Source: a virus. From it: 35,005 bases of DNA. Position numbers and translations under genes: made by a program. This document shows, piece after piece, positions 3,367-33,018 of this stretch. Under the pieces are notes generated by a model. It saw only the letters and a list, made by a program, of their open reading frames with translations, was not told the DNA's origin and did not search any database. Position 1 is the first letter of the stretch. The number at the start of each line of letters is the position of its first letter. The stretch is from positions 8,908 through 43,912 of IMG/VR virus record IMGVR_UViG_3300030107_001970. One strand, 5' to 3'.

Positions 3367-4028
3367 TAACTAAAGGATGAATCAGGTTCTAAGGCAATGA
3401 AGTATGTAAGTTCATAATCCTTACATCTAAATCTAGATAATAATTTCTTAGATACTACTACATCATATGTACCAGGTATAATCTTAATGTTCTCTACTTT
3501 AAAGTTGAATATAAACTCATCACTTGTCTCACCAACTGTAATGGCAAAATCATTAGATGTATCATTCTTCTTATCTCTAGCAACAATCTTTACTACACCA
3601 TTCTCACCAATAACAGATAAATCAGGTAACTGATAAATTCCTGCTGCTTTAAGCAAACGATCTAACTGTTGGGTGTTCAACTCAAAAGATACATCTTCAC
3701 TAGGAAGATCTAAGTTCTTATCAGGAGGTGTAACTATTACACTAGGATCAGCAAAGAAGTATTTGGATCTCATCCTACCTTCTTTAATAACCACATGTCC
3801 TTGGTTCTCAAAGTCCAAATCTGGATTCTGGTGCAATCCCATACCATTAAGGAATTGATTCAAATCATAAATCCCAAAATCTTTAGGGAACGATTCATTG
3901 ACTTCTGCTTCTGCAAGTATGTTCTTCATTACAGAAATGGTACGAAGTTTACTACCCTCTTTAAAAAGAATAGATTGATTGATGTTGCTAAAATTCTTGA
4001 GTAGATTAATAGTCTTATCAGAAAGTTT
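3366..4028 (-). CDS. 45: DNA polymerase sliding clamp, T4 gp45-like
   Basis: Trimeric processivity clamp for the phage polymerase and, in T4, the mobile activator of late transcription together with gp55 and gp33. The frame is open to 4070, but I choose the ATG at 4026-4028 (MKLSDKTINLLKNFSNINQS). This gives 220 residues, near T4 gp45 (228), and an 11-base overlap with the upstream stop instead of a long one. The pattern FSNINQSILFKEG near the N-terminus and the hydrophobic strands ending LTYFIALEP fit the clamp fold. The methyltransferase follows with a one-base overlap, and gp44 lies further down the operon. Confidence 0.9.
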   Translation of the reverse strand, partial: KLSDKTINLLKNFSNINQSILFKEGSKLRTISVMKNILAEAEVNESFPKDFGIYDLNQFLNGMGLHQNPDLDFENQGHVVIKEGRMRSKYFFADPSVIVTPPDKNLDLPSEDVSFELNTQQLDRLLKAAGIYQLPDLSVIGENGVVKIVARDKKNDTSNDFAITVGETSDEFIFNFKVENIKIIPGTYDVVVSKKLLSRFRCKDYELTYFIALEPDSSFS

Positions 4029-4827
4029 CATAACGAGTGTTAGTATAATCAGGTTCTTTAGTGTTACCACTGAAGTAATAAAGGAGTAAGCAATAATGCA
4101 TTGCTTTTAGGATGTCCTGCTTTGCAGATCCCTTCTTATCATAGCGACTCAAATACTTAAGTGCATTAGAGCGACAAAATGATTCTGCATCCCCTACAGA
4201 GTGAATAAGATCAAGGGTTTGAGTATCAGAATTCTTATTTGTATAATGTCCTCTATAAGTAGAAGAGACATAATCTTTAAGATCTGCAATACCTTTATCT
4301 TCTTGGTATTTGTGAGATTTATATCCTAAATCTGGTTGAGGTTTTGACTCCTCATATTCAGTTTTATCTTCTCCAAGAAAAGGTGTATTAGTTGGTAAAG
4401 TAAACTCTACTGCATCATTAGAAGCAAATAAATCTGACTTTGCCTTAGCATCCTCAAGTGGAGAAGTATCAGTACCAAAGGTAACAACATCTTTTCCATA
4501 AAGATCAAAACCACTAGTATCAATGTTAATAGTTTCTGCTGCACCAACCATGTTATCTACTTGGAAGTCAACTGCACTAGCATAATCAAAATTAACATGA
4601 TGTGCTATTTGATCATCATTATCTGATAAAGGATCTGTAGCAAATGGATTTGGCATATCACCATTCCGATCATAATCATACCAATACTTAGAATGCTTTG
4701 GTTCAGGATTGATCAGATCATACTCATCACTCTCTTGAGGAGTGATGGTAGTTGATTCAGGTTTTGGATCATACTCATCACTCTCTTGAGGTGTCACTCT
4801 ATTCTCGTCACCCATAATAGAAGTCAT
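4018..4827 (-). CDS. DUF3310-like protein with acidic repeat-bearing N-terminus
   Basis: A 269-residue protein in two parts. Roughly the first 180 residues are acidic and low in hydrophobics, beginning with an imperfect tandem repeat (TPQESDEYD at about residues 12-20 and 29-37). The last 80 residues carry a pattern typical of DUF3310: HYTNKNSDTQTLDLIHSV, then FCRSNALKYLSRYDKKGSAK, then a helix DILKAMHYCLLLYY. Small DUF3310 proteins are common in phages and their function is unknown. A good host-type promoter lies just upstream in the end of the CobS-like gene. The following gp45 start overlaps its stop. The N-terminal extension looks disordered. Domain assignment is from remembered family features, not a search. 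Confidence 0.7.
   Translation of the reverse strand: MTSIMGDENRVTPQESDEYDPKPESTTITPQESDEYDLINPEPKHSKYWYDYDRNGDMPNPFATDPLSDNDDQIAHHVNFDYASAVDFQVDNMVGAAETINIDTSGFDLYGKDVVTFGTDTSPLEDAKAKSDLFASNDAVEFTLPTNTPFLGEDKTEYEESKPQPDLGYKSHKYQEDKGIADLKDYVSSTYRGHYTNKNSDTQTLDLIHSVGDAESFCRSNALKYLSRYDKKGSAKQDILKAMHYCLLLYYFSGNTKEPDYTNTRYETF
4716..4791. repeat. 25-bp direct repeat, 51 bp apart
   Basis: The 25 bases at 4716-4740 are repeated exactly at 4767-4791. The offset is 51 bases, exactly 17 codons, so the repeat is in frame. It encodes two copies of a TPQESDEYD block near the start of the DUF3310-like protein. The flanking codons are only partly similar, which suggests an older duplication still recognisable at DNA level or one maintained by recombination. 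Confidence 0.85.
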
Positions 4828-11646: not shown

Positions 11647-12683
11647 TAAACTAATTCACATGCCTCCCTATAGATTTCCTGTATAAGACCCTGAATTTGT
11701 GACTTGTTTAAAGTAGTTTCAGTTTCTTCTACATACCTATTTAATAGTGATATAGTATCCTCAGATTCAATATCAGTATCATCAACCTTATCGTTTATAT
11801 CATTGAAGTTCTCTACAATCCTTAACTCTGCGATATTAGCAGCATAAAGTTTATCTACAAACTTCTCAAATTTTTTAGGATAGGTCTTCTTCTTTACAAA
11901 CAATTTTACTATCTTATCCGTATATTGTCTAGCATCAAATGTCTGTGCATTGTCATCCTCATAATAGACATTATAAAAAATTCTATATGGATTACGAATC
12001 TCCTCAGTTTCAAGAGTCTCAGTATCAAATATATGGAATCCTCTATTGTCTCCAGTATCATTAGCAAACATCTCATATGGATTACCTAAGTAATATATCT
12101 TTCCATTATTAGATCTTGTATGATAGTGACCAGAAAATACCTTTGCAAATTTATCATAAACATCAGTCTCATACCCATTCATCATGACATGTCCACGAGT
12201 AGCAGTGAATCCGTTCAATTCTAAATGACCAAAAACAACTTTTGCTTTAGATGCTTTAATCCTTTTAAAAGTCTCATCTTCATTCTCTTTACATACCCAA
12301 GGAACTAATAAAGTCTTTAACTTACCAAACTTAACTTCTGTAGTATCAGAATAACAAGTTATATTAGGGTATTCCTTAAGTAGTAAATCTATAGCATTTA
12401 CTTCGTTGGTATTCTTATAATAAGCAGTATGGTTACCAACAATAGTATGGATAGTATAGGATGTAAGTTTATCAAAATAATTCTCCTTTGCCCATTTTAA
12501 GGCAGCAAAATCTATACCCTTCCTATTATCAAAAGTATCTCCCATATCAATAATGGTATCAATACCTCTGTTCTCTATTTCTGGAAAGAATATATCGTTA
12601 TAAAATTTTAGAAAGTAATCGTGGAACAATTTGGAATTCTTACGAGCACCAAAATGTTGATCGGTTATTATTGCTACCTTCAT
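11646..12683 (-). CDS. 47: Recombination endonuclease subunit, T4 gp47-like (Mre11/SbcD type)
   Basis: Metallophosphoesterase nuclease subunit of the gp46/gp47 end-resection complex. The 345-residue protein has the expected metal-binding motifs in order: TDQHFG (7-12), MGDTFDNRK (47-55), GNHTAYY (83-89), then GHLELNG and GHYHTR further on. T4 gp47 has 339 residues. The start overlaps the gp55 stop by four bases (ATGA). Its C-terminal part is helical and charged, as expected for the gp46-binding region. Confidence 0.96.
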   Translation of the reverse strand: MKVAIITDQHFGARKNSKLFHDYFLKFYNDIFFPEIENRGIDTIIDMGDTFDNRKGIDFAALKWAKENYFDKLTSYTIHTIVGNHTAYYKNTNEVNAIDLLLKEYPNITCYSDTTEVKFGKLKTLLVPWVCKENEDETFKRIKASKAKVVFGHLELNGFTATRGHVMMNGYETDVYDKFAKVFSGHYHTRSNNGKIYYLGNPYEMFANDTGDNRGFHIFDTETLETEEIRNPYRIFYNVYYEDDNAQTFDARQYTDKIVKLFVKKKTYPKKFEKFVDKLYAANIAELRIVENFNDINDKVDDTDIESEDTISLLNRYVEETETTLNKSQIQGLIQEIYREACELV

Positions 12684-13171
12684 TGATACCGAGTCTTGGA
12701 ATGAATAGAATCTTTTATACTATTATAGTCGGAATAGTTCCCACCTTCAGTGAGACTATCGTCATGAAAGACTTCTTCATAACCATTCTTCTCGATAATT
12801 TTGTTTTTAATTTCTAACTGCTTCTTTTCTTTTTGTATCCTACGTAAAAACGCATAATGAATAATCTGCGTAAAGTAAGCAAAAGGATTTTGGGATTTCT
12901 CAGGATTAAAATTATGTATGTATTGAACGCAATTTTCGATTCCATCAGAGATCATGTCATCCTTAAAGATGTAATTAACAAAATTTGGTTTAAAAGATAA
13001 ATGGGTTGCTATCTTTAAAAAACATTCACCAAGGTAATTGGTAATCCTAGGTTTAGGTTTACCCAATTCCTCTGCTTCAGCAACATCCTTTTTATATAAA
13101 ATTAAGGCAGCAAGAAATTCCTTATTATTGACGTAATGAATAGATCTTTTTCTTTTAGTTACACCAGCCAT
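12680..13171 (-). CDS. 55: Sigma factor for late transcription, T4 gp55-like
   Basis: Phage late sigma factor that directs host RNA polymerase to TATAAATA-type promoters, with gp33 and the gp45 clamp as co-factors in T4. The 163-residue protein is close to T4 gp55 (185). Its conserved core, SDGIENCVQYIHNFNPEKSQNPFAYFTQIIHYAFLRRI (about 84-120), is like sigma region 2. The gene has its own good host-type promoter and the SD-like AGGGA before the ATG. No gp33 gene is seen in the window. Many late promoter elements occur in the head/tail half of the window, matching its role. Confidence 0.93.
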   Translation of the reverse strand: MAGVTKRKRSIHYVNNKEFLAALILYKKDVAEAEELGKPKPRITNYLGECFLKIATHLSFKPNFVNYIFKDDMISDGIENCVQYIHNFNPEKSQNPFAYFTQIIHYAFLRRIQKEKKQLEIKNKIIEKNGYEEVFHDDSLTEGGNYSDYNSIKDSIHSKTRYQ

Positions 13172-18814: not shown

Positions 18815-19258
18815 CTATTTAGCACGTTCAGTGAAGTCGATACCTTCCATGTGATCATATTCATGCAAAAATATCCTTGCAATGAATCCTTCTAGTTTTA
18901 CTTTATGTACTTCTTTACCTTCATCTTCATATTTAACAACAATATAATCTGGTCTTTCAACATCCAAAAAGACATCGGGATAGGATAAACACCCTTCCTC
19001 TAATTTTACCATCTTCTTAGATTCTTTTATTATTTTTGGATTAAAACATGTAATTGTCTCTTGCAACTCCATGTTAGATATCATTACAAATGCTCGTTCT
19101 TTTATACCTATTTGGTTTGCTGATAGTCCCACTCCATTATAGTGGAACATATTTTCATGCAATTGATAGGATAACTTAGATCTATCTAAGTTGTAACTAC
19201 ACTTATCTATCCTTGCGTGTAATAGTGGATCGTTGGATGGCAACAGTTTTTGAATCAT
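18815..19258 (-). CDS. def: Peptide deformylase
   Basis: Removes the formyl group from the N-terminal methionine of new proteins. All three family motifs are present: GVGLSANQIG (42-51), EGCLSYP (88-94, Cys metal ligand) and HEYDH (132-136, two His ligands and catalytic Glu). At 147 residues it is shorter than host enzymes (about 170 or more) and lacks a long C-terminal tail, as is usual for cyanophage deformylases. Phage deformylases are thought to favour host photosystem proteins such as D1. No photosystem gene is in this window. The upstream small coiled-coil gene overlaps its 5' end by 56 bases. Confidence 0.93.
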   Translation of the reverse strand: MIQKLLPSNDPLLHARIDKCSYNLDRSKLSYQLHENMFHYNGVGLSANQIGIKERAFVMISNMELQETITCFNPKIIKESKKMVKLEEGCLSYPDVFLDVERPDYIVVKYEDEGKEVHKVKLEGFIARIFLHEYDHMEGIDFTERAK

Positions 19259-19558: not shown

Positions 19559-20962
19559 TTACATGAGGTTCTTGATTTGAACACGTCTGTAGTAGCGGTT
19601 CTGGTTAACCTTAAGTCTTCCAAGACCTTGATCTGTACCTTCGGCAAATGGGTTAGCAACAAGACCGTATCTTGTCTTAAATCCAATTTTTGGTTGGAAG
19701 GTGTTCTCTCCCACAGCACGTACCATTTGTAGCGGAACGTAAGGGCAATAGAACAGACCAGCGTCATAAGGAGAAGATCCTTTGTATCCTACAACGTAGT
19801 ACTGTTGAGCAGCAACGTTAGCAGCATAAGGGTCGATGTAAACTCTATACTTACCGAGTAGAACACCAGCAAATGTATTGCCTGTGTCATCAACGTTAAG
19901 GTTAGCGTTAAGAGCAGGTGTGTAGTCTAGTACTCCAGCCATTGACAATGCAGATGCAACGTCAGCAGAACACATGATTACATTACCCTTTCCACGACGA
20001 GTTCTTTGTGCGATTGCGTTAGCATCACGCTCGATCTGGAATAAGAGACCTTTAAACTTCTCAACGGACCAACGACCATTACTGTCGATGTCTAAGTCGA
20101 AGACACCTGCAGTTGCAGTGTTAGCAGCAGCACCTTGTTCAGCAACCTTGTAGATGGTACGGATAACTTCACGGTTAATTTCCGCAAGGATCTCTGTACT
20201 TAGGATGTTTGCAAGTTCTGCTTCAGCGTTCAATCCGTGGATCGCCTTGAGGTCTTGAGCGAGTTCTAGTGAGTACTCTGCTTTTAGAGCTCTTGACTTG
20301 GCTTCAACGAGAACTTTCTCGATGCTGAATGCCATTTCGTTGAACTGGTTGCCAGTACCATTTCCTAGGTTCTCAGCATCTCCAGTCTTCATACCCTGAC
20401 CTACATTGTAGCCAGTAGATGAAGCAGTTCCAACAGGATTAAGAAGACCTGGGTTTGAACCTGCTTGTGAGGTTGTACCCATACCTGCAACGCCGTCGGA
20501 GAATCCGCTTGCCTCATCAAGACCATCGTCCTGACCAGAGAATGCAGTATCAACTTCGTTGTAGAAGGTCTCAGTTCCGCTCTGATTAGTGTAGCGTGAA
20601 CGCATTGCGAAGATAAGTCCAGTAGGACCACTCATTGGTTGTACGCCAGCTAAATCGTATGCCACCAAGTTAGGCATAGCACGACGTATAAGACTGATAA
20701 GAACAGGGTCGAAACCAGCGACAGGACCTGCAGCATCAGCGTCAGCTCCGAATCCACCGCCAGCACCAGCAGCATTACCTGCGTTGGTTGGTGTTTCTGT
20801 CAACATTCCAGATGAGAATGCTGTTTGTTCTCTTAAAAATTGTTCTTGGTTTTCTAGCAAGACTGCGGTAACAGCTCTTTTATGAGAATCTTCGATTTTA
20901 TCTAGACCATCATAATCGAGAACTGGAGCCCACTTCTCTTGCAAGGCTTCTGATTGAAACAT
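19559..20962 (-). CDS. 23: Major capsid protein, T4 gp23-like
   Basis: Precursor of the main head shell protein. The 467-residue length is typical of cyanophage gp23. The segment ISLIRRAMPNLVAYDLAGVQ (about 89-108), followed by PMSGPTGLIFAMRSRY, is the diagnostic gp23 signature. The T4 gp21 protease cuts after a hydrophobic-X-Glu motif; a candidate here is LTE (54-56), which would remove about 56 residues. The ATG follows SD-like AAGGA. Scaffold gp22 lies 52 bases upstream, and no promoter element is obvious in that gap, so gp22 and gp23 are probably co-transcribed. GC content appears higher than in neighbouring genes, as is common for capsid genes. Confidence 0.97.
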   Translation of the reverse strand: MFQSEALQEKWAPVLDYDGLDKIEDSHKRAVTAVLLENQEQFLREQTAFSSGMLTETPTNAGNAAGAGGGFGADADAAGPVAGFDPVLISLIRRAMPNLVAYDLAGVQPMSGPTGLIFAMRSRYTNQSGTETFYNEVDTAFSGQDDGLDEASGFSDGVAGMGTTSQAGSNPGLLNPVGTASSTGYNVGQGMKTGDAENLGNGTGNQFNEMAFSIEKVLVEAKSRALKAEYSLELAQDLKAIHGLNAEAELANILSTEILAEINREVIRTIYKVAEQGAAANTATAGVFDLDIDSNGRWSVEKFKGLLFQIERDANAIAQRTRRGKGNVIMCSADVASALSMAGVLDYTPALNANLNVDDTGNTFAGVLLGKYRVYIDPYAANVAAQQYYVVGYKGSSPYDAGLFYCPYVPLQMVRAVGENTFQPKIGFKTRYGLVANPFAEGTDQGLGRLKVNQNRYYRRVQIKNLM

Positions 20963-21014
20963 TGCTAGTTTCCTTAAATGTGTTAATTGAGTTTTGAATT
21001 AAATAATCTTAAAT

Positions 21015-22250
21015 TCACTTCTTAGCGATGCCTGAAAGTGTCTTAAGGTAAGCATTCATTGACTGTGATGCGTATGCATCATCTGCAACGTCAACCCCTT
21101 CAGATAGGGTTTCAGATTTTGCTTTTGCTGGAGAATTTCCTTTTGAAGGGTAATAAGACTCCTTCAATGTCTCCAATTTCTCACGATATTCGTCGTCACT
21201 TTCAAACTCCACACTCTCTGCTAAGGAAGCTAACTTCTCTTTTTGCGACAGTGCTAAACCTTCAGATACGTCAGCGAAGATCTCTTGAGCAACAGACTCT
21301 GCAAGTCTCTTGTTCAATGTGATATTCTTTTCGATCTGCTCGTTGAGCTTGGTCTCCATGTCATCAAGTTTGTCTACCATATTCTCAAGGACATCATATT
21401 TGTCTTCAGGGATTGATACATAATGTTCTTCAAAAAGACTCTTCATGCCACTGAGGAATGATTCGGTCATCTCTGCCTTGAGTCCAGACTCGATTGCGAG
21501 CTGGTTTTCAGTGACCCATTCTTCTGCAACATATTCTAGGTATGAATCAATTCGCTCTGTAATAGAACCACGAATTGCATCTACCTCTTCTACGAGTTTT
21601 TCCTCGTAAGTTTCCTCGAACTGCTTTGTCATATGCTCTTTAACTTCAGATACTTTAGATCTGAGAGCGGCTTCAAAGATTGTACGAGCTTTAGATTGGA
21701 ACTCTTCACTAAGTTCTTCTCCATCAAGAAGTGCCTTAACGTCTTCTTCAACGTCAATTACTTCTTCTTCTTCTACTGCTTCTTCTTCAGCAACGACTTC
21801 AGCAGTCTCTTCTGCTTCAGTTGCTTCTTCTTCAGCAACGACTTCCTCTTCAGTAGTCTCTTCTTCAGCAACAACTTCATCAGTTGCTACTTCGTCTTCA
21901 GCGACAACTTCCTGATCAGCTTCGAGTTTCACTTCTTCTTCCTCAGGTACGTTTGCGAGTTTTTTACCAACGCCTACATCATTACCTGATGCACCGTCTT
22001 TCTTACCTTTACGGTTCGTTACTACGTCCTTAACCTGCTTGAGGGTAGAACCAGGTGTCTTCAGGGCTGCTGAATTGTCATCTGGCTTGTAGTTTGTAGG
22101 ATCTGGTCCACCAAGATCTTCCCAAGTTTGAGGCGTTCCACCTGTTGTTAACTTGGGCATTGCATCCCCTGCTCCTGCTTTCGCATTCACGGCAGTGTTG
22201 GATTGCTTAGTGCCCGCTTCCATTTCCTGTAAATTTTTGTCACTAGACAT
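21015..22250 (-). CDS. 22: Prohead scaffold protein, T4 gp22-like
   Basis: Internal scaffold around which the gp23 shell assembles and which is later degraded by gp21. The 411-residue protein lies exactly between gp21 and gp23. Its middle (about 105-170) is a very acidic low-complexity region of repeated VVAEEE/TEEEVVAEE-like blocks. The C-terminal half is predicted long helices (FEETYEEKLVEEVDAIRGS, MVDKLDDMETKLNEQIEKN). It is longer than T4 gp22 (269), mostly because of the acidic region and the N-terminal glycine/proline-rich part. A late promoter element lies 38 bases upstream. Confidence 0.9.
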   Translation of the reverse strand: MSSDKNLQEMEAGTKQSNTAVNAKAGAGDAMPKLTTGGTPQTWEDLGGPDPTNYKPDDNSAALKTPGSTLKQVKDVVTNRKGKKDGASGNDVGVGKKLANVPEEEEVKLEADQEVVAEDEVATDEVVAEEETTEEEVVAEEEATEAEETAEVVAEEEAVEEEEVIDVEEDVKALLDGEELSEEFQSKARTIFEAALRSKVSEVKEHMTKQFEETYEEKLVEEVDAIRGSITERIDSYLEYVAEEWVTENQLAIESGLKAEMTESFLSGMKSLFEEHYVSIPEDKYDVLENMVDKLDDMETKLNEQIEKNITLNKRLAESVAQEIFADVSEGLALSQKEKLASLAESVEFESDDEYREKLETLKESYYPSKGNSPAKAKSETLSEGVDVADDAYASQSMNAYLKTLSGIAKK

Positions 22251-22321: not shown

Positions 22322-22972
22322 CTATAATGTATTGAGAAAGTCTTGGAATAATCCAAGTTTCTTCTCTTCAAGATTCCTAGAGACTACTGCACGTTCAATA
22401 TTATTCCTAGTTGTCTCTGCAGCACGTTCCAATAACGCACCATTATCCCAATACCATTCCTTACCTTCCATGATGCCTTGAACAAATGCATCAGGTGCAG
22501 AAGGGTCTGCCACTATATCAGCAGCAGTTGCCAACATGAAATCTTCACCAACTTCCTTGTATCCTTTAGGGGAATCCCTTAAAGAACCAATACCTCTAGA
22601 AGATACTCCAAGAGTTACACCGTCCTTTAAAAGAGACTCAGTTATCTTACCCATAGGGGTAGATAAAATCTGTGCCTTACCAACAAAGTTGTTGCCTTCT
22701 TGCTTCAATTCTGTAATTTTGTGTGAAACTCTATCGAGGTTTACGGTAGGACCATCGGGATGACCCAATTCTCCAAGAGCACGTCCTTTAGCGACGTAAT
22801 CCTTAGAATACCTTCCAACCTCTTTCTCCATAATTTTCATTGGATATAACCGACCATTACGGTTTACCATTTCACTCTGGAGGAAGACACCTTTAATGAA
22901 AAGATTCTTCTTACCACCAACTGCTTCGGTGATAACTTCTACCTTTTCAATCTCTTCTCTTATGAGTTTCAT
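22322..22972 (-). CDS. 21: Prohead core protease, T4 gp21-like
   Basis: Serine protease that cuts the scaffold and capsid precursors during head maturation. The 216-residue protein (T4 gp21 has 212) has ALGELGHPDGP with His71 and LGVSSRGIGS with Ser124/125, matching the His/Ser catalytic pair of herpesvirus-like prohead proteases. The phrase SEMVNRNGRLYP near residue 33-44 is a strong family mark. A late promoter lies 25 bases upstream of the ATG, in the short gap after the small core-type gene. Confidence 0.95.
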   Translation of the reverse strand: MKLIREEIEKVEVITEAVGGKKNLFIKGVFLQSEMVNRNGRLYPMKIMEKEVGRYSKDYVAKGRALGELGHPDGPTVNLDRVSHKITELKQEGNNFVGKAQILSTPMGKITESLLKDGVTLGVSSRGIGSLRDSPKGYKEVGEDFMLATAADIVADPSAPDAFVQGIMEGKEWYWDNGALLERAAETTRNNIERAVVSRNLEEKKLGLFQDFLNTL

Positions 22973-23005: not shown

Positions 23006-23179
23006 CTATTCTTCTGATTCAGGAGATTCTTCTGCTTGTGGAGCAAACGCTGAATCATGTACAGAAGGCTTCATTCCATCAATTCTCTCAGAAGATTTTG
23101 TGTATAAAATATCTTTAATTTTATCGGTAATATCAGACGCAGATGCATCATTTACAACCATATCTAAAAGTTCATCCAT
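23006..23179 (-). CDS. Small head-cluster protein, 57 aa (prohead-core candidate)
   Basis: A 57-residue frame from ATG 23177-23179 to TAG 23006-23008. It begins MDELLDMVVNDASASDITDK and continues with a helix (IKDILYTKSSERIDGM), ending in an acidic tail of glutamates and serines. T4 has small acidic core proteins (gp67, gp68) just upstream of gp21, and cyanophages carry a short protein with a DMVVND..S..I.DKIKD-type start in this place. A core or scaffold role is therefore reasonable but unproven. A CTAAATA element 27 bases upstream may be its late promoter. The radical SAM operon starts 67 bases away on the other strand. Confidence 0.78.
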   Translation of the reverse strand: MDELLDMVVNDASASDITDKIKDILYTKSSERIDGMKPSVHDSAFAPQAEESPESEE

Positions 23180-23199
23180 TGTCTTTTATAAAGTAATTT

Positions 23200-23214
23200 G
23201 CTAAACTATTTAGC
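23200..23214. other. Short palindrome between divergent promoters
   Basis: GCTAAA and TTTAGC, a perfect 6-base inverted repeat with a 3-base centre. It contains the minus-strand CTAAATA element and abuts the plus-strand AATAAATA. It could bind a dimeric protein or fold as a small RNA hairpin. Confidence 0.45.
23207..23214 (-). promoter_or_regulatory. Late-type element GCTAAATA for the 57-aa head gene
   Basis: On the minus strand, CTAAATA matches the last seven positions of the late -10 consensus with one change. It lies 27 bases before the 57-aa gene ATG, the same distance range as the other late elements in this window. Confidence 0.5.
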
Positions 23215-23222
23215 AATAAATA
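23215..23222 (+). promoter_or_regulatory. Late-type promoter element AATAAATA for the radical SAM operon
   Basis: A plus-strand match to the late -10 sequence (seven of eight bases), 24 bases upstream of the first radical SAM gene. The SD-like AAGAAGGAG (23225-23233) lies between it and the ATG. A predicted start near 23228 would give a leader of about 20 bases. The same AATAAATA form occurs before gp18 and gp20. Confidence 0.6.
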
Positions 23223-23246
23223 CCAAGAAGGAGTACAGATATCAAT

Positions 23247-25109
23247 ATGGTGGCGAACGTCTACCTATTTCAACCACAGTTTTCAGTTGAAGTTAGAAAG
23301 GAAGATAACTATTGGATGCCGTATAGTGCTGCATGCTTATGGAGCTACTGTACACAATTTGAAGACATAAATGAGCACTATAAATTTAAAGAACTTTTCT
23401 TTAAAAGAGAACATCCAGATAAAATTTTAGAACGTTTAGATAACCCAGTAGTATGTGGGTTTAGTTGCTTTGTATGGAATGTTCAATATCAATTACATAT
23501 AGCAGAGATAATTAAAAATAAATATCCAAATTGTATTATTGAATTTGGTGGTCCTCAGACTACCCAAAAAATGCTTGATGATAACGACTTTATAGATTGT
23601 ATCCAACTTGGTGGTGATGGAGAACCACACTTCTTAGATCTACTTAGAAGTGTAAGAGATGGTAATGAGATAAAAAAAGTTTATGAAAGAGATAGATTAA
23701 AAGAACTAAACTTTATAAGTCCGTATCAAGCAGGAGTATTTGATAAACTAGTAGAAGATAATCCAGATACTATATGGGCAGCTATTATAGAGACTAATAG
23801 AGGTTGCCCACATATGTGTACTTACTGTGATTGGGGTGGAACCACTTACGGTAGAGTTAATAAGTTTGACATGGGAAGAGTACAAGATGATTTAAATTGG
23901 ATCATTAATCATAAATGTCAATACCTATTCTGTATTGATGCCAACTTTGGAATTTTTAGGAAGAGAGATTTAGAAATAGCACAAATGCTACGAGATGCAG
24001 CAGATCATCCAGATAGTATAATTGAAGATATTGTTGTACAAGATTCTAAAAATGGAACATCTGGATTTGAAATATCACATGTATTAGGAGAATATGATAG
24101 GAGAGGTGTTACTATAAGCGTTCAAAGTATGAACCAACCAACTTTAAAAGCAATCAAGAGGGAAAATTTAAAATTAAATGATATTGCAAGTCATATGAAA
24201 TTAGCAAATAAGTGGGGTGTTATGTCATACACTGAACTTATTCTTGGTCTTCCTGAAGAGACATTTGAATCTTGGAAGGAAGGATTCTGTGCTCTATTAG
24301 AAGCAGGTCAACACTATTCTATTGATGTTTGGTTTTGCCAAGTATTTGGTAATACTGAATTAAATAGTGAATTATCTAGGAAGATATATGGCATCAAAAC
24401 TATTACTGCAGAAGATTATATATCATTCTCCAATAGAAAAGATTATCAAGAAGTAAAAGAGACAATAGAACTTATTAATAAAACCAATACACTATCAACA
24501 GAAGATTTAGTACAATGCTACCTATATGGTTGGATGATAGTTCAATTCCATATAAATGGATACTCTCAATGGGTTGCCAAATATTATAGACATAAACTTG
24601 ATATACCATATAGAAAATTCTATGACACTATGTTTGAGAGAATAATTAAAGATGATGGACATATAGGAGAAAGTTATAGAAATCTATATGATAGAATTTA
24701 CAGTTATATGTCAACAGGAAAAGTTGCAGAAGATAAGGATAGAGGACATAAGTTAGAAATGTCTATGGCAACTGATCGTGATGCTCTCTTTGAATACAGA
24801 GAAAAGACTTTTGAATTTGTAAAAGAATGTGCGGATACCTTAGAAGGTGTAGATCCAGATTTATTCGCCTTCCAGAAGGAATACGTGTATAATCCTGAGA
24901 TAGAATATCCATTAATATTAAAACTTCCTTTTGATATTGAGACCCCTTGTTGGGATAATAAGGATATATATTATAAGATGACCAATTCTAGAACAGAAGA
25001 AATGAGGTACGATACATGGTTATTAATCAGAAGAGGATTAATGAAAAATGCTATCGTAAGAATGAAATCTCCTGTTATAGAATCGCATAAACTAGGGTTA
25101 CATGCATAA
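23247..25109 (+). CDS. Radical SAM protein with B12-binding-like N-terminal domain (copy 1)
   Basis: A 620-residue enzyme in three parts. Residues 1-140 look like the Rossmann-type cobalamin-binding domain of BchE-type radical SAM proteins (VVCGFSCFVWN, IIEFGGPQ at 97-104, GGDGEPHFLDLL), without the DxHxxG motif. Residues about 180-400 are the radical SAM barrel with the iron-sulfur motif CPHMCTYC (Cys187, 191, 194), then SVQSMNQPTLKAIKRENL and LILGLPEETFESW. The remaining ~220 residues are an unassigned helical region. Family members methylate unactivated carbons or phosphorus, or do other radical chemistry; the substrate is unknown. It overlaps copy 2 by eight bases. Plus-strand orientation within a minus-strand head module is unusual. 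SD spacing to this ATG is long (13 bases). Confidence 0.87.
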   Translation: MVANVYLFQPQFSVEVRKEDNYWMPYSAACLWSYCTQFEDINEHYKFKELFFKREHPDKILERLDNPVVCGFSCFVWNVQYQLHIAEIIKNKYPNCIIEFGGPQTTQKMLDDNDFIDCIQLGGDGEPHFLDLLRSVRDGNEIKKVYERDRLKELNFISPYQAGVFDKLVEDNPDTIWAAIIETNRGCPHMCTYCDWGGTTYGRVNKFDMGRVQDDLNWIINHKCQYLFCIDANFGIFRKRDLEIAQMLRDAADHPDSIIEDIVVQDSKNGTSGFEISHVLGEYDRRGVTISVQSMNQPTLKAIKRENLKLNDIASHMKLANKWGVMSYTELILGLPEETFESWKEGFCALLEAGQHYSIDVWFCQVFGNTELNSELSRKIYGIKTITAEDYISFSNRKDYQEVKETIELINKTNTLSTEDLVQCYLYGWMIVQFHINGYSQWVAKYYRHKLDIPYRKFYDTMFERIIKDDGHIGESYRNLYDRIYSYMSTGKVAEDKDRGHKLEMSMATDRDALFEYREKTFEFVKECADTLEGVDPDLFAFQKEYVYNPEIEYPLILKLPFDIETPCWDNKDIYYKMTNSRTEEMRYDTWLLIRRGLMKNAIVRMKSPVIESHKLGLHA

Positions 25110-26943
25110 CGTCTACATGTTCCAACCACAGTATGCTGTGGAAATAAGAAAAGAAGACACCTACTGGTTGCCTTATAGTGTAGGGTGTCTATGGAGTTAT
25201 TGTAGTCAGTTCAAAGATATTACAGATAACTTTGAATTAAAAGAGTTTATATTCAGAAGAGAAGATCCAGCAGATATATTAGATCGTTTAGATAATCCAG
25301 CAATATGTGCGTTTAGTTGTTATATTTGGAATGAACGCTATAATTTACATGTAGCAAAATTAATCAAAGAGAAGTATCCAGACTGTATTATTGAATTTGG
25401 TGGTCCTCAAGGAACAAAACATTTACTTGAGTATGAATTTATAGACACCATCATCATCTCTGAAGGTGAAGAATCATTCTGTGATCTTCTACGAAAGATT
25501 AATAATAATGAATCAATTGAACGTGTTTATGCTAAGGAAAGAATTGAAGTCTTGGACTTCCCTAGCCCTTATCAGAGTGGTCTTTTTGATAATATCATTC
25601 AGAATAATCCTGATGTCATGTGGGCTATGACTATGGAGACTAATCGTGGTTGTCCACATATGTGTACTTACTGTGATTGGGGTGGAATGACATATCAGAA
25701 AATTAAAAAGTTTGACCTTGAACGGGTCAAACAAGACATTGAATGGGCAGGTGATCATAATGTTGGATTTATATTTAATGCTGATGCCAACTTCGGTATC
25801 TTTAGAGATAGAGATGTTGAGATTGCAAAGATGTTTAGAGAAGCAGCAGATAAAGGTAATCTAGAAGCAATCAATATTCAATACACTAAAAATTCTACAG
25901 AAGTTGTTTTTGAAATTGCAAAGATAGTTGGTGACATTAGTAGAGGAGTAACTATAAGTGTTCAGAGTATGAATGAACCTACACTTAAAGCAATTAAAAG
26001 AAAGAATATGAAGGTTAATCGGATAACCGAACAAATAGAGAAGAGTAAAGAATATGGAGTTAAAACATATACTGAATTTATTTTAGGTCTACCTGAAGAG
26101 ACCTTAGATTCATGGAAGGAAGGATTCTCAAAAGTTCTTGAATGCGGTCAACATGAATCAATTGACGTATGGTTCTGTCAACTATTTGGCAATACAGAAC
26201 TGAATAGTAAACTCTCAAGAGAATTACATGGAATAAAAACTATTAAGTCTGAAGATTATGTTTCCTTTGGTAATGACAGAGATTATGATGGAGTTGTAGA
26301 GATTATAGAACTCATCTCTGAGACAAATACAATGAGCAATGACGAATTAATAGAAGCATATATGTATGGTTGGTTAATTGTTCAATTCCATATTGCTGGT
26401 TACACTCAAGTAATATCAAAATACTTCCATAATAAATTGGACATATCATATAGAAGATTCTATGATTGCTTGTTTAATTATGTAAGAGAGAATGAAGGAA
26501 TGCTAGGAGATCATTATAGAGAGATCTTCACTTCAGTTAATCATTATATGAAAACTGGAAAAATATTAGATAAAGGTAAGCATGGTCATACTCTACATGC
26601 AGGAAGTTTTGCCTTCATGTTTAATAATAAAGAATATATCTTCTCAGAGATAGAGGATATGCTTATATCTCAAGCACCTATGATTGAAGAGTGGACTGAT
26701 ATAAACTATCCAATAGATCCCAATATATTCCATGCACAAAGATGTTTTATATTTGATGAGAACATAAAATATCCTCATGCATTTAGATCAAATTATGACT
26801 TAGACACATGGGAAGATAAACAAATTGATTATCTTATTGATACTGAATTTAAAAACTTTGATAAGAATAACCCACATGAGGTATTCATATTAAGACGCAA
26901 AGGTCTACTTAAGAATCAGATGAAGCAACTATGTACGGCTTAA
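25102..26943 (+). CDS. Radical SAM protein with B12-binding-like N-terminal domain (copy 2)
   Basis: A 613-residue paralogue of the preceding gene, alike over its whole length: MFQPQYAVEIRKEDTYWLPY against LFQPQFSVEVRKEDNYWMPY, ETNRGCPHMCTYCDWGG in both, and GVTISVQSMNEPTLKAIKR against GVTISVQSMNQPTLKAIKR. The cluster cysteines are 184, 188 and 191. The cobalamin-like domain contains IIEFGGPQ and SEGEESFCDLL. Its ATG lies inside the end of copy 1 (eight-base overlap), so the two are probably translated together and may form a heterodimer or act one after the other. The 3' end runs 35 bases into the opposing oxygenase-like gene. Confidence 0.87.
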   Translation: MHNVYMFQPQYAVEIRKEDTYWLPYSVGCLWSYCSQFKDITDNFELKEFIFRREDPADILDRLDNPAICAFSCYIWNERYNLHVAKLIKEKYPDCIIEFGGPQGTKHLLEYEFIDTIIISEGEESFCDLLRKINNNESIERVYAKERIEVLDFPSPYQSGLFDNIIQNNPDVMWAMTMETNRGCPHMCTYCDWGGMTYQKIKKFDLERVKQDIEWAGDHNVGFIFNADANFGIFRDRDVEIAKMFREAADKGNLEAINIQYTKNSTEVVFEIAKIVGDISRGVTISVQSMNEPTLKAIKRKNMKVNRITEQIEKSKEYGVKTYTEFILGLPEETLDSWKEGFSKVLECGQHESIDVWFCQLFGNTELNSKLSRELHGIKTIKSEDYVSFGNDRDYDGVVEIIELISETNTMSNDELIEAYMYGWLIVQFHIAGYTQVISKYFHNKLDISYRRFYDCLFNYVRENEGMLGDHYREIFTSVNHYMKTGKILDKGKHGHTLHAGSFAFMFNNKEYIFSEIEDMLISQAPMIEEWTDINYPIDPNIFHAQRCFIFDENIKYPHAFRSNYDLDTWEDKQIDYLIDTEFKNFDKNNPHEVFILRRKGLLKNQMKQLCTA

Positions 26944-27541
26944 ATGATTCTATTGCCTCATCCCAAAGGATTCTGTGTTCATAATTTTTATCCTTGTCTA
27001 TTAGAGCAATAGTAATAGTAAATCTCTTGTCATCTGTAGGGTTATGAGAACTATGCAGAGGACCAACATTAATAAGACTAGAAGTACCAACTTCCACTTC
27101 ATGCTCGATAGTGGACTCCTCTGGTCTAGCAACTAATACTTTGCCATGATAATGGTCATCTATTCTATCCCCACCTGCTCTTGGATCTACGGTGCTAACT
27201 TCAAATGCTTTATCAGAAGACCACCATCGCATAGTGCTTCCTTTAGCACCAATTTGATATACTATTTTTGCCCACGACCAATCACCAATATTATCAGAAT
27301 GTACAATACCATCCTCATGTGGTGGAGTATAAAAAAACTCTATCCAATGAGAACTATATCCCATACTGTTTAACCACGGGAGAATTTTATCATTACCTAA
27401 ATCTTCAAATTGTAGTTGCTTATGGAATTGCAACCATCCCATACCTTTAGTTTTATATTGTGATACGTCTATATTTGGAAGATAATCAGGTATATTTAAA
27501 AACCTATGATAATCTATTTTCAGATCCTCCTGTACGTTCAT
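26909..27541 (-). CDS. 2OG-Fe(II) oxygenase-like protein
   Basis: About 210 residues from the ATG at 27539-27541. The signature of the 2-oxoglutarate/iron oxygenase fold is visible: VHSDN (H81 and D83, HxD) and, about 80 residues later, GPLHSSHNPTDDKRFTITIA. The latter supplies the distal His (163 or 166) and the Arg (173) that would bind 2-oxoglutarate. Such enzymes hydroxylate proteins or small molecules. The frame is open to 27571, but all ATG starts lie inside the upstream gene; a strong AGGAGG at about 27525-27530 lies downstream of the chosen ATG, so the true start is uncertain. It converges with radical SAM copy 2, with a 35-base overlap. Confidence 0.7.
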   Translation of the reverse strand: MNVQEDLKIDYHRFLNIPDYLPNIDVSQYKTKGMGWLQFHKQLQFEDLGNDKILPWLNSMGYSSHWIEFFYTPPHEDGIVHSDNIGDWSWAKIVYQIGAKGSTMRWWSSDKAFEVSTVDPRAGGDRIDDHYHGKVLVARPEESTIEHEVEVGTSSLINVGPLHSSHNPTDDKRFTITIALIDKDKNYEHRILWDEAIESFKPYIVASSDS

Positions 27542-27902
27542 CAAAGTCATGGATATTCTCTGATCCACCAATAGCGAATGGATTATATTTACTAGTTGCT
27601 ATCTTATACATTTTTTCATGAACGGTCTCTTCTACTGGACCTTCATACTCCTGTCCATCTTCTTCATCAATAAACCAGTTTGCTACTTCTTCTTCTGGTC
27701 TTGGATTCTCTTCGATTGCAATCATTTCTAAATCTAATTCGGATCTACGTTCAGGTGGTGCATACTTGTTATCACCATTTGCTATTGGCATTGAATCATG
27801 TGGATGTGCCAATTCATTAATTACTCGATTCAACCAGTCAGTACTATCCTCATCTTTTTTTGCCTTAAGAGGAAACCAACTGGACGGATTTAGTGAGATC
27901 AT
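27504..27902 (-). CDS. Unknown head-module protein, 132 aa
   Basis: A 132-residue acidic protein following portal gene 20 after a one-base gap. It starts MISLNPSSWFPLKAKKDEDS and is rich in E, D, N and P, with no membrane segment (middle part RRSELDLEMIAIEENPRPEE). Cyanophages commonly have a hypothetical gene here, so it is likely part of the regular head module and not of the inserted segment. A structural or assembly role is suggested only by position. The oxygenase-like gene starts within its last 40 bases. Confidence 0.78.
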   Translation of the reverse strand: MISLNPSSWFPLKAKKDEDSTDWLNRVINELAHPHDSMPIANGDNKYAPPERRSELDLEMIAIEENPRPEEEVANWFIDEEDGQEYEGPVEETVHEKMYKIATSKYNPFAIGGSENIHDFDERTGGSENRLS

Positions 27903-27903
27903 A

Positions 27904-29556
27904 TTAAGTAAGGGTTGGTGCTTCAGGATCTAGGGGAGTTTTACCAGATGCTCCATTAGAGTTATCTGGTGACATACCACCCATAGGTTCCATTGGTAAT
28001 CCTGTCTCAGGATCAATAGGAGCCATTGGATCTGGTATTACACCCTGTTCTATCTCTTTTGCAATCTGCTTATCTTGTTCGATTATCTCCTCATCAGTCT
28101 GACGGATAATCTTACGACGAACCCAATCTTGTGAGTAGTATTTACCAACATAAGGTTCTGCAGTAGCAGCAATATTCAATCTCTCTGTCATTAATTCTGC
28201 TTCCTTCAGTTCAGAGAAGTGGTTATCATATAAGAAGTCATATTGAATATGCTCTTCTAGTTTTTCCCAATCTTCTGGTGATACTAGGTTCTTAAGTAAA
28301 CATTGTGTCTTCAACATATCGTTGAACATTCTAGAGAATCTCTTACGTAGTCTACCTACAAACTTAGTAAACTTAAGTTCATCTCTAAGGATCTCTGAAG
28401 ACCTTCCAAGGTTAAACCCACCTTCACCACCTTGTCTAGACTCAGGTACGTTTAAGGATCTATAGAGTTTACTCTGGAAGTACTTAATATCTGATAGTTC
28501 ACCTAAGTTCTGTCCACCTGGTAGTGTAGTAATCTCAGTTCCTCTACCACCTTCTCTACGGGGTAACCAGAAGTCTTCCAACATGGACATAAACTTCTTG
28601 TCATCACGGATCTCACCAGTGCTGGCATCATACACCAACTTATTACGATAACGCATCATAACGTCACGTAGATATTGTTCTGCCTTCATCTTAGGAAGGT
28701 TACCAACATCAATATAGAATATCCTTCTTTCTGGTGCTCTTGATAATCTGTATATAACAAGAGAATCCTCAATCATTCTAAGTTGATTAAGAGATTTAAT
28801 TGCTTTGTGTAGATATGATAATGTTGTACCTTTATTTCTATCAACTAATCCAGAAGTACAATATGTAATTGCATCTCTTGCAAACTTGGTTCCACCACCA
28901 GATCCTTTACCTGGTTGTCCACCATAAGGTGCTACTTGTTGCTTAGGGTTATATACAAAATACTCCTTAATATTTGGGAACGGAGACTGCATTGGGTCAT
29001 CCCTTCCATCATTCTGCTGTACACCACCATTCTTATCTTTTTTAGTAATTGATTCACGAACATAACGCATCTTCAATGCATCAATATACCTCAACTCTTG
29101 AATTCCATCATGTGGATTCTTTAAGTCAATTACTTTATGGTAATATAATCTTCCATCAACATACCAATTTCTATAAATCTCATGTGATTTCTTATCGAAA
29201 TCTAGAAGTTCTAATATAGTTTTAAATTCTTCTCTAATCTTTTTCTTTAAACTATCCCCTGCATTTAAATTATCTAGATCAATTTGAACAGGACTATCAT
29301 TTAAATCACTAACTATTGCTTCGTTTACAATATCTTCAATAGCACCATCACACTCTGGGTGAAGTGCCATCTCTCTGTATCTCTTAATGAGATCATATTC
29401 GGTCTTATATACACCTTCAATATCTACATAAGAACCAAAAAATCCACTGGTCAAGTAGTGATCAACCCCATCCTCGTTTGATTGAGGTATGGGGGATACT
29501 ACGCCAGGGGATTTCTTTTCGTTATCCTCTATAGAGAATCCAAACAACTTGGCCAT
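27904..29556 (-). CDS. 20: Portal vertex protein, T4 gp20-like
   Basis: Forms the dodecameric DNA entry channel at one head vertex and is the docking site for terminase. The 550-residue protein (T4 gp20 has 524) contains family landmarks: YREMALHPECDGAIEDIVNE (about 60-79), RAPERRIFYIDVGNLPKMKA and EDFWLPRREGGRGTEITTLP. These are widely used to recognise cyanophage g20. The C-terminus ends in a proline/glycine-rich tail. An AATAAATA late element, overlapping an extended -10 TATAAT, lies just before it at the end of gp19. Confidence 0.97.
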   Translation of the reverse strand: MAKLFGFSIEDNEKKSPGVVSPIPQSNEDGVDHYLTSGFFGSYVDIEGVYKTEYDLIKRYREMALHPECDGAIEDIVNEAIVSDLNDSPVQIDLDNLNAGDSLKKKIREEFKTILELLDFDKKSHEIYRNWYVDGRLYYHKVIDLKNPHDGIQELRYIDALKMRYVRESITKKDKNGGVQQNDGRDDPMQSPFPNIKEYFVYNPKQQVAPYGGQPGKGSGGGTKFARDAITYCTSGLVDRNKGTTLSYLHKAIKSLNQLRMIEDSLVIYRLSRAPERRIFYIDVGNLPKMKAEQYLRDVMMRYRNKLVYDASTGEIRDDKKFMSMLEDFWLPRREGGRGTEITTLPGGQNLGELSDIKYFQSKLYRSLNVPESRQGGEGGFNLGRSSEILRDELKFTKFVGRLRKRFSRMFNDMLKTQCLLKNLVSPEDWEKLEEHIQYDFLYDNHFSELKEAELMTERLNIAATAEPYVGKYYSQDWVRRKIIRQTDEEIIEQDKQIAKEIEQGVIPDPMAPIDPETGLPMEPMGGMSPDNSNGASGKTPLDPEAPTLT

Positions 29557-30228: not shown

Positions 30229-33018
30229 TCAAACTCTACCAGCGACTTCTTCAAAGCTAACACCAGTACGGGTAGCAACGAAGGTCAGTGTGATGTAGTT
30301 GATCGACTTCGCAGGCTTCAGGAAGATGTCTGCTCGGAACTCATTATTATCAATGATATCTGGAGTGTTGTTAGTCTCATCACAAATTACTAGGTAATCA
30401 TAGATACCTCGCTTCGCTTGGACATCTCGTAGATAAGGTTCAACGATATTAACGAAGTTTGCCCTCGTAATCTGATCGTTAAACTCAAAGAGTTGTGCTT
30501 GTGCTGCTCTCTCTAATGCTTGCTCAACTGTCAAGAATAAACGACGAACGTTAATTCTATCAAAGGCAGAAGCATAAGATAATGCAGTCTTATCACCGAA
30601 TAGGATGATTCCTGTTCCAGGAGTATTGATAATTGAGTTAATCCTGTTGGAATAAAGTATGTCTCTCTGAGACTTAGTTGGGTTGTATGCTAGTTTAATA
30701 GCATTCTTAATATTACCTCTTTGCTGTCCAGCAGGTGAGAACCAAGGATAGGCAACTAGGTTAGTACGACACATCAATCCAGCAATGTCGGGGTTGCATG
30801 GAAGATAACGGAACTTGTTATTGAATCTGTCGTAAGTGTACTTATAACCACTATCAAAGATTGCATAAGATGAAGATGTAAGTGGTCCAAAGAACTCAAC
30901 AATGTTTCCAGTTTGAGTAATAGGATCAGTAATGTTAACTACCGTTCCTTTATGTGGTGATAAACAAGCAACACAATCCTTTCTAGAATCAGCAACAGCA
31001 ATTAATTTATTTGCTTTTGCTTGAGACTGTGCAAGGTTATCTGAAGATGGTCCCATCAACAGATAGTCTACTTGAACCTCATCCTTATTATCAAACAGGT
31101 TGTATGCAGTAATCAGATCTCCTAATTCTGCTTTAAGTCCACCACCGTTTGTATAATTCTGACCAGCATCAAGTTTATAAGTTTGATCACCAATAGAACT
31201 AAAGGTATTACCTTCAGCATTTCTATCCCAAGTCGTTTGATATCTTTGTAGTGGATACCATAACGTTGGCATATCACTATCATCATAAACTCTGTTTCCA
31301 TCTTGGAAGAAAGTACCTACAGGGTATGACTGATGATATGTATCATTAGCATTACTCTGGTTAGAACCAGCGTAGATATAATCCGAGAAGTTTGCAAGAT
31401 AAGACTTGTACCATGTCTTCTGAGGAGCATTTGCTTCAGATACAGCATCCTTTGCTTTAGACAAACTTAGATGCTTCTCAAGGATATTTCCTTGAATACC
31501 TGTTAGTGAACCTGAATCATCAACAACAACGACGTGCATCTCATCATTTCGTCCACCCCTTTGAGCAGCATAGTTTGATGTTCCTGGTTTAGGTGCGATG
31601 CTATTCCAGTATATCGTTGAGTTGTCTAGGTTCAATTTACGTGAATTGTACCAATCATCAACACCAGAGACTAAAACTCTAGAGTTAGTTGTTAAAGTTT
31701 CAATAACAACTTCGTCATTATTCAGTGCAGTTACGCTTAATTTTACGTCATCCGTAATTGCTGTACCACCAATACCTGCTCCACTAACAGTGATTGTTGT
31801 ACCAACACCATAAGCAGATCCAGGACTTGTTAGTGAGACGGTTCCAATACCACCAGTTGCATCTCTGAATATGGTGAATACTGCTCCAGTACCTTCAGCA
31901 CTTGTACCTGTTAGGTTAGTGTAAGTACCACTAGAAGCAGATGGAACTGATGTAAATGTGGTTAAACCAACTGTGTTGACTGTACCTTGATTTAGGTCAT
32001 AACCACCTACTGATGTACCAGCGATAGATACGGTATCTCCAACCGTGTATCCAACACCAGCATTTACTATGGTTGCACTAGCAACATTACCATCTGTACT
32101 ATTACGTACAATAGTGAACGTTGCACCAGCACCTCCACCACCAGTTGTACCACCAACACTAACGTAAGTCTGGTCTTGTTCACCTTGAATTGCACTAGAA
32201 GTGGTAATACCAATAGTTTCTATTGAGTCCTCAGGTGATACAACATCGCCGTCAGAGTCAAGTATTGTAAGTCTTTGATCTTTTAAGAAGGATGCATACT
32301 TACTACCTTCTGAATAATTTACATAGTATTCTCTACCTGGTTGTGTACCACCAGTTGAGACACGAGAACGAACTTTAATATTGAGAATACTTATTCCTGT
32401 ATCAGGTCCATCAACTAACTCTGTGATAACTCCTTTTAGATATCCGTTGAAGACTTCAGTAGTACCCGCTCCTGGAACGACTTGACCACTAATATCAACT
32501 GTAACTCCATATCCAACTTGAGCACCCATATTGGTTACTGCCGTTGTAGCAATACCAATGACCTGATCTGCCATGTCGTCTACGTAGCAGACTTTTAGAC
32601 CATTTGACCATTGTCCAGGGTTCTTAGCAGCATAATAGAAGTTTGGATTTGCATCCAAGAAGTTTGTATTATAGTCGTCAAAGTTTTTAATCTTTGTACT
32701 TGCGACAGATGAAGTACCAACACCAACGTTACCGTTTGCTAGGTTGTCGTCATCCGATCTAATTACCTTAAGAACACCACCGTATGAGAGGTACTGCGAT
32801 GCTGACATCCAGTACTCATATTGAGCATCGGTATCATAGGGTTTTCCAAATGTACTTATAAGGTCTTGCTCTGTGGCAATATCAATAGGTTCTGATACAG
32901 GTCCAATTTCAAAAGGTCCTGCGATACCTCCAATATTGTCAAGAACGTTTTCCGCTCTACCGACGGTTAAGTCAACTTCTCTAGTTAGTACACCAGGAGA
33001 TAATTGAGGAGTTGCCAT
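30229..33018 (-). CDS. 18: Tail sheath protein, T4 gp18-like, with inserted repeat region
   Basis: Contractile sheath subunit. At 929 residues it is much longer than T4 gp18 (659). The N-terminus (LSPGVLTREVDLTVGRAENV) and the C-terminal half (FDRINVRRLFLTVEQALERA, RDVQAKRGIYDYLVICDETN) are characteristic of sheath proteins. Part of the extra length is an insertion around residues 285-430 with two similar glycine-rich, beta-type units (GGAGATFTIVRNSTDGNVAS and GTGAVFTIFRDATGGIGTVS, each followed by a VGYTVGDTVSIAG-like strand pair). These probably form surface domains on the sheath. A late promoter element lies 39 bases upstream, with SD GGAGA near the ATG. Confidence 0.95.
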   Translation of the reverse strand: MATPQLSPGVLTREVDLTVGRAENVLDNIGGIAGPFEIGPVSEPIDIATEQDLISTFGKPYDTDAQYEYWMSASQYLSYGGVLKVIRSDDDNLANGNVGVGTSSVASTKIKNFDDYNTNFLDANPNFYYAAKNPGQWSNGLKVCYVDDMADQVIGIATTAVTNMGAQVGYGVTVDISGQVVPGAGTTEVFNGYLKGVITELVDGPDTGISILNIKVRSRVSTGGTQPGREYYVNYSEGSKYASFLKDQRLTILDSDGDVVSPEDSIETIGITTSSAIQGEQDQTYVSVGGTTGGGGAGATFTIVRNSTDGNVASATIVNAGVGYTVGDTVSIAGTSVGGYDLNQGTVNTVGLTTFTSVPSASSGTYTNLTGTSAEGTGAVFTIFRDATGGIGTVSLTSPGSAYGVGTTITVSGAGIGGTAITDDVKLSVTALNNDEVVIETLTTNSRVLVSGVDDWYNSRKLNLDNSTIYWNSIAPKPGTSNYAAQRGGRNDEMHVVVVDDSGSLTGIQGNILEKHLSLSKAKDAVSEANAPQKTWYKSYLANFSDYIYAGSNQSNANDTYHQSYPVGTFFQDGNRVYDDSDMPTLWYPLQRYQTTWDRNAEGNTFSSIGDQTYKLDAGQNYTNGGGLKAELGDLITAYNLFDNKDEVQVDYLLMGPSSDNLAQSQAKANKLIAVADSRKDCVACLSPHKGTVVNITDPITQTGNIVEFFGPLTSSSYAIFDSGYKYTYDRFNNKFRYLPCNPDIAGLMCRTNLVAYPWFSPAGQQRGNIKNAIKLAYNPTKSQRDILYSNRINSIINTPGTGIILFGDKTALSYASAFDRINVRRLFLTVEQALERAAQAQLFEFNDQITRANFVNIVEPYLRDVQAKRGIYDYLVICDETNNTPDIIDNNEFRADIFLKPAKSINYITLTFVATRTGVSFEEVAGRV
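31729..32166 (-). repeat. Two diverged repeat units within gp18
   Basis: At the protein level, residues about 285-350 and 365-430 of the sheath protein share the pattern G-G/T-G-A-x-FTI-x-R-(N/D), then V/S-x-x-x-x-PG/AG-x-x-Y-x-VG-T/D-T-x-(S/T)-(V/I)-(S/A)-G. The period is about 80 residues. The DNA copies are diverged and not identical. Confidence 0.65.

Follow-up and report, generated by a model that had tools for sequence, protein, structure and literature searches.

A probable paired divergent late promoter between the head genes and a radical-SAM cassette of a T4-like phage

Late promoters of the T4 type, which depend on gp55, gp33 and gp45, carry the octamer TATAAATA at −13 to −6 and need just a TATA-like box, with no −35 element; published variants include NATAAATA in S-PM2 (PMC2984593) and CTAAATA in Aeh1 (PMC1524935). 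The bacterial bidirectional promoters described by Warman, Grainger and colleagues (PMC12825309) consist of pseudo-symmetrical DNA that polymerase engages either way with mutual exclusion, a −10 element being common to both directions and transcripts starting on either side of it or within it. Among the pelagimyophages, a related marine group of T4-like phages, cassettes of radical-SAM genes were reported in a variable island, the host recognition cluster, and the prediction of middle and late promoters was described as unsuccessful (PMC7029224). Back-to-back late promoters were not described in the parts covered of the open-licence literature on divergent or bidirectional late promoters, where "divergent" is used in another sense, and no transcript map of a relative was found by title or abstract. 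The locus analysed here resembles the T4-type late promoter in its octamers, with A or C at −12 and a loose −13, in having no −35 box, in its position before virion genes and in the presence of gp55 and gp45 in the same DNA, but it carries two copies back to back in 14–16 bases, facing divergent late operons. As in the bacterial bidirectional promoters, the DNA is pseudo-symmetrical and would be read either way with mutual exclusion; unlike them, it has no shared −10 element but two separate 6-bp cores 2–4 bp apart, which have at most the −12/−13 positions in common. In the window none is shared, and the predicted starts lie 27 bp apart. The pelagimyophage report mentions its radical-SAM cassettes in the host recognition cluster; the cassette studied here lies between gp20 and gp21.

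The window, by which we mean the whole stretch of 35,005 nucleotides that was analysed, comes from an uncultured-virus record of 43,912 bases and carries a T4-like head and tail block, including gp18, on the minus strand. On that strand lie the gp20 portal gene (27904–29556; Portal_T4, E 1.1e-194), a 220-aa gene (26909–27571) without a match in Pfam, PHROGs or NCBIfam, a 57-aa gene of unknown function (g57, 23006–23179; phrog_14164) that by T4 gene order would occupy the place of genes 67/68, and the genes for the gp21 prohead protease (22322–22972; Peptidase_S77, E 1e-39), the gp22 head scaffolding protein (21015–22250; phrog_237, E 2e-102) and the gp23 major head protein (19559–20962; phrog_138, E 8.8e-172). 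The preliminary description of this DNA had stated that the late sigma factor gp55 is encoded in the window, and we found it on the minus strand at 12680–13171 (phrog_234, E 1.2e-68). The sliding clamp gp45, the DNA polymerase processivity factor, is encoded on the same strand at 3366–4070 (phrog_223, E 2.1e-87); gp45 is an activator of T4 late transcription. Among the assignable genes of the window, only a two-gene cassette (23247–26943) lies on the plus strand. Its products, radical SAM copy 1 (23247–25109) and copy 2 (25102–26943), are TokK/CysS-like: both match the methyltransferase TokK in the Protein Data Bank (7kdx; E 2.5e-64 and 2.9e-75, respectively), both keep the CxxxCxxC motif, which is intact as CPHMCTYC in copy 1, and both match NCBIfam KedN5, a methylcobalamin-dependent radical SAM C-methyltransferase, although far below the cut-off. 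The best reading of the cassette is that it encodes cobalamin-type radical-SAM enzymes.

Two late-promoter octamers had been proposed on opposite strands between g57 and the cassette, and both are present at the distances given. The minus-strand element GCTAAATA (23207–23214) faces the 57-aa gene, whose ATG is 27 nt away, and gp21-22-23; the plus-strand element AATAAATA (23215–23222) faces the cassette, whose first gene, radical SAM copy 1, has its ATG 24 nt away. The octamers abut without overlap and together make up 16 bases (23207–23222). Both are TATAAATA-like with a TAAATA core, so that on the plus strand the cores read TATTTA and TAAATA (23217–23222) with a gap of 4 bp; the minus element has C at −12, as do Aeh1 late promoters (PMC1524935). 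When the octamer is numbered as in T4, from −13 to −6 (PMC1524935), transcripts would be expected to start at 23228 on the plus strand and 23201 on the minus strand, the same values as had been predicted earlier. Because the window holds 74 one-mismatch matches to TATAAATA against 102.6 expected, which is fewer rather than an enrichment, a lone near-match says little and the case rests on comparison. In shuffled sequences, a plus core 2–4 nt from a given minus core arose in 1.6%, and a back-to-back pair arose in 0.15% of shuffled 60-nt leaders.

The association of the motif with late genes was examined in distinct 70-nt upstream stretches of genes whose protein match begins at residue 1. A sense [AC]TAAATA was found upstream of gp18 (10/10), gp20 (38/38), g57 (48/48) and gp22 (18/18) in every case, and in part upstream of gp21 (29/52) and uvsW (8/11). 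Conversely, none of the distinct upstream regions of gp55 (0/6), gp47 (0/21), gp46 (0/11), gp45 (0/1) and gp44 (0/1) had it, nor did those of an Sm-like gene (0/22) or a uvsY-like gene (0/19). The exact motif is also missing before the late genes gp17 (0/10), gp19 (0/19) and gp23 (0/40), and some late genes must therefore depend on a variant or on transcription that begins further upstream. In the window, the stretch upstream of gp23 (20963–21014) has no sense TAAATA motif, and transcription of gp23 may start at the promoter of gp22 or of gp21. The genes called gp17, gp19, gp44, gp46, gp47 and uvsY are those that we take to be such from gene order and general knowledge, with partial backing from the annotation of S-SCSM1 and its kin. 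Among 315 other upstream regions, 105 of which have a sense late element, none contained a back-to-back pair.

We next compared the pair among relatives. Contigs were collected by matches to radical SAM copy 1 (14 loci), gp21 (80) and the 220-aa gene (29), and seven named phages were added. The starting set comprised 132 sequences, namely 131 loci and the window. Two copies of the window (L001 and L002), 32 sequences without a match to the 57-aa gene and two that were too short (L040 and L059) were left out; of the 96 remaining rows, 39 repeated another row, which left 57 distinct loci. Of the 39 loci with the cassette, 38 had TATTTA-N2-4-TAAATA upstream of g57, as did both unclassified loci but none of the 16 without the cassette; these 16 all kept the minus core. 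The gap between the cores of the 38 pair-bearing cassette loci was 3 (n = 29), 4 (n = 5) or 2 (n = 4). Over 37 distinct sequences the cores are invariant and both strands have A or C at −12, while the right flank varies (at most 1.0 bit per column). Across loci, the first possible start codon follows the plus core at distances of 5 to 38 nt, indicating that the plus core holds its position relative to the minus core and not to the gene. In the single exception (L039), the plus gene begins at the expected position of the core, and CTTAAATA is found within the g57 leader instead. The proposal that a plus-strand late promoter is tied to the cassette is thus borne out by the 38/39 and 0/16 counts, by the invariant core and by a motif that marks late rather than replication genes. 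The accompanying argument against a recent passive insertion is likewise supported, since this cassette occupies one and the same site in phages with gp21 proteins that are 80–100% identical.

The contrast between loci with and without the cassette has to be read with two qualifications. In a gp21 tree of 56 loci (L012 has no gp21), the cassette state needs only two independent changes, so that 38 versus 0 does not amount to 54 independent tests, and a sign test on the two independent pairs is without power. Moreover, the minus core of cassette-free loci is found at the gp20 stop codon, at positions ranging from 2 nt inside to 8 nt past it; the absence of a pair there is partly a coding matter, because the DNA right of this core consists mostly of the last part of gp20. 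As far as sequence comparison goes, the shuffles, the invariance of the cores against a changing flank and the 315 pairless upstream regions are stronger controls than the cassette contrast.

Back-to-back sites were also sought in 34 whole phage records, 16 of which have one such site, 15 of these at divergent gene boundaries. Among 22 records scanned with a gap of 2–4, 11 of the 12 with the cassette have one site, always at the gp20/g57 cassette boundary, and of the 10 without it S-SKS1 and S-CRM01 have one site each, both between divergent genes, that of S-CRM01 at 32579–32593. Seven more records were scanned with a gap of 1–6: HTVC008M has a site at 18922–18937 between gp2 and gp4, Aeh1 one at 122804–122817 between gp4 and gp48, and P-SSM2 one inside gp7, whereas T4, KVP40, S-PM2 and Syn9 have none. 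We take the P-SSM2 site as chance. Five further whole records had no back-to-back site. For the comparison of gp4 and gp13 relatives, 44 of 46 loci were entered (L166 and the fragment L208 were left out), of which 30 were distinct. At the pelagimyophage gp2/gp4 boundary, the pair is present in 13 of 14 distinct close relatives of HTVC008M gp4 (identity at least 59%) and in none of 14 relatives with identity of 51% or less. Only two loci were found with S-CRM01 gp13, one being S-CRM01 itself, and the other has no pair. Judged from these records, back-to-back predicted late boxes are a recurrent, although not universal, solution to the strand switch between late genes. In HTVC008M (L157, 18916–18943), just 5 nt separate the late core from the ATG on both sides of gp2/gp4, and in L011, L012 and L026 the plus core of the cassette likewise lies 5 nt before an ATG; at such sites initiation of the T4 type would give leaderless mRNAs starting at AUG.

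One could envisage that the cassette is expressed mainly early by the host sigma70 polymerase, with the late box secondary or serving a second wave. Overlapping early and late promoters have been proposed for S-PM2 (PMC2984593), and TGATATAAT occurs 10–11 nt past the plus core in 6 of 37 distinct loci (L004, L005, L006, L009, L022 and L033), two more loci having TATAAT further on. However, the TATAATG of these eight loci contains an ATG that in some is a possible start codon, and the sigma70-like sequence is confined to a minority, as opposed to the late core in 38 of 39 loci. The window itself has no TGATATAAT beside the plus core, and no sigma70-like site, with −35 and −10 hexamers 16–18 nt apart, begins at 23180–23247 on its plus strand. 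We consider predominantly early expression unlikely, although in the six loci TGATATAAT beside the plus core is possibly an added early promoter.

Alternatively, the pair could be a single palindromic operator for a dimeric regulator rather than two promoters. TATTTA-N-TAAATA is an inverted repeat, and the window has a longer one over the minus element, TTGCTAAA-CTA-TTTAGCAA (23198–23216), with 8-bp arms at 23198–23205 and 23209–23216 and a 3-nt loop; as a DNA hairpin it scores a z of −2.9. The preliminary description had placed a 6-bp palindrome between and over the two elements. An inverted repeat is indeed there, but its arms are 8 bp, not 6, it spans the minus element but reaches only two bases into the plus element, and it is not general: it is limited to part of the clade and, unlike the two cores, which are general, is absent or interrupted in most other loci. 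We set the repeat aside as a hairpin or operator, as it is clade-restricted and whole in neither predicted transcript, and it is probably dispensable. The cores themselves do not have the fixed half-site spacing of a dimer operator, their gaps being 2, 3 and 4 at the cassette and 4, 5 or 2 at gp2/gp4; each half is a motif found alone before gp18, gp20 and gp22, and apart from the site inside P-SSM2 gp7 the pair is confined to diverging genes. An operator in place of two promoters therefore seems improbable. That the pair arose by chance in AT-rich leader DNA, where one-mismatch TATAAATA matches are common, can be practically dismissed given the 1.6% frequency per shuffle once a minus core is present, the 37 distinct sequences with invariant cores and changing flanks, the 315 upstream regions without a pair and the second conserved boundary at gp2/gp4.

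We conclude, with a probability of roughly 85%, that the two elements form a paired divergent gp55-type late promoter of a T4-like phage, serving the head genes on one side and the cobalamin-type radical-SAM cassette on the other. Since T4-type late promoters need no −35 element, each half would be a complete late promoter. The minus half would be the original promoter of g57 and gp21-22-23, which in cassette-free phages stands at the end of gp20; the cassette would have been inserted between the gp20 block and this promoter, an insertion presumably tolerated because the downstream head genes keep a promoter of their own, and the plus core would supply the inserted genes with theirs. By analogy with T4, on which the proposed use of gp55 and the late timing are based (PMC2988020), either half would be transcribed by the polymerase of the host carrying gp55, with the gp45 clamp assisting. 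The two halves would not be read at once, as one bound polymerase would cover the other box, a prediction modelled on the mutual exclusion at bacterial bidirectional promoters (PMC12825309). Both operons would come on together, late, and expression of the inserted genes probably begins in step with virion assembly. If so, a late-box pair of 14–16 bases, with nothing else needed, would be a simple rule for a strand switch inside the late regions of some T4-like phages, and would allow competition between polymerases to be tested cleanly where a promoter has no −35 elements. The paired late promoter also predicts the timing of a radical-SAM enzyme family of uncultured phages, which bears on the targets of these enzymes, and gives a pattern with which late promoters can be sought in phages where earlier attempts to predict them reportedly failed.

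The cassette itself is not uniform among relatives. Compared with L008, the window is 96% identical in gp21 and 95% in copy 2, but only 48% in copy 1; compared with L004, it is 87% identical in gp21 and 91% in copy 1. By these identities, copy 1 is exchanged between lineages while copy 2, the conserved copy, and gp21 stay alike (window, L004 and L008–L012). The plus promoter had been described as facing radical SAM copy 1; this holds for the window but not for every relative: between the promoter and copy 1, some carry a small ORF, others a glycosyltransferase-like gene (phrog_2835). These exchanges leave the paired promoter in place. The type of g57 leader changes within one gp21 clade (L011 and L026 versus L005 and L006), and together with the swaps of copy 1 this suggests recombination at the promoter. 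We tentatively raise the further possibility, which we think less likely than its opposite, that the symmetrical pair serves as a permanent slot for expressing swappable cargo on the strand opposite the head operon. The cargo, be it a glycosyltransferase-like gene, a small ORF or cobalamin-type radical-SAM methylases, would be exchanged by recombination just downstream of the pair, the two directions would compete and thereby set how much cargo enzyme is made relative to head protein, and the enzymes would act late on the assembling virion or the host.

A few minor features of the cassette region were recorded. The tail ends of copy 2 and of the 220-aa gene on the minus strand share 35 nt (26909–26943), and a terminator scan of the window gave no site at this overlap, so that late transcripts may collide there. 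L068 and L117 have three radical-SAM genes per cassette. In L004, the small ORF between the promoter and the radical-SAM gene (2098–2253) has a PxPFxT..SDNDDxIAHxVN stretch in common with the N-terminal part of the DUF3310 protein encoded in the window (4018–4827), and this stretch could be a recognition peptide.
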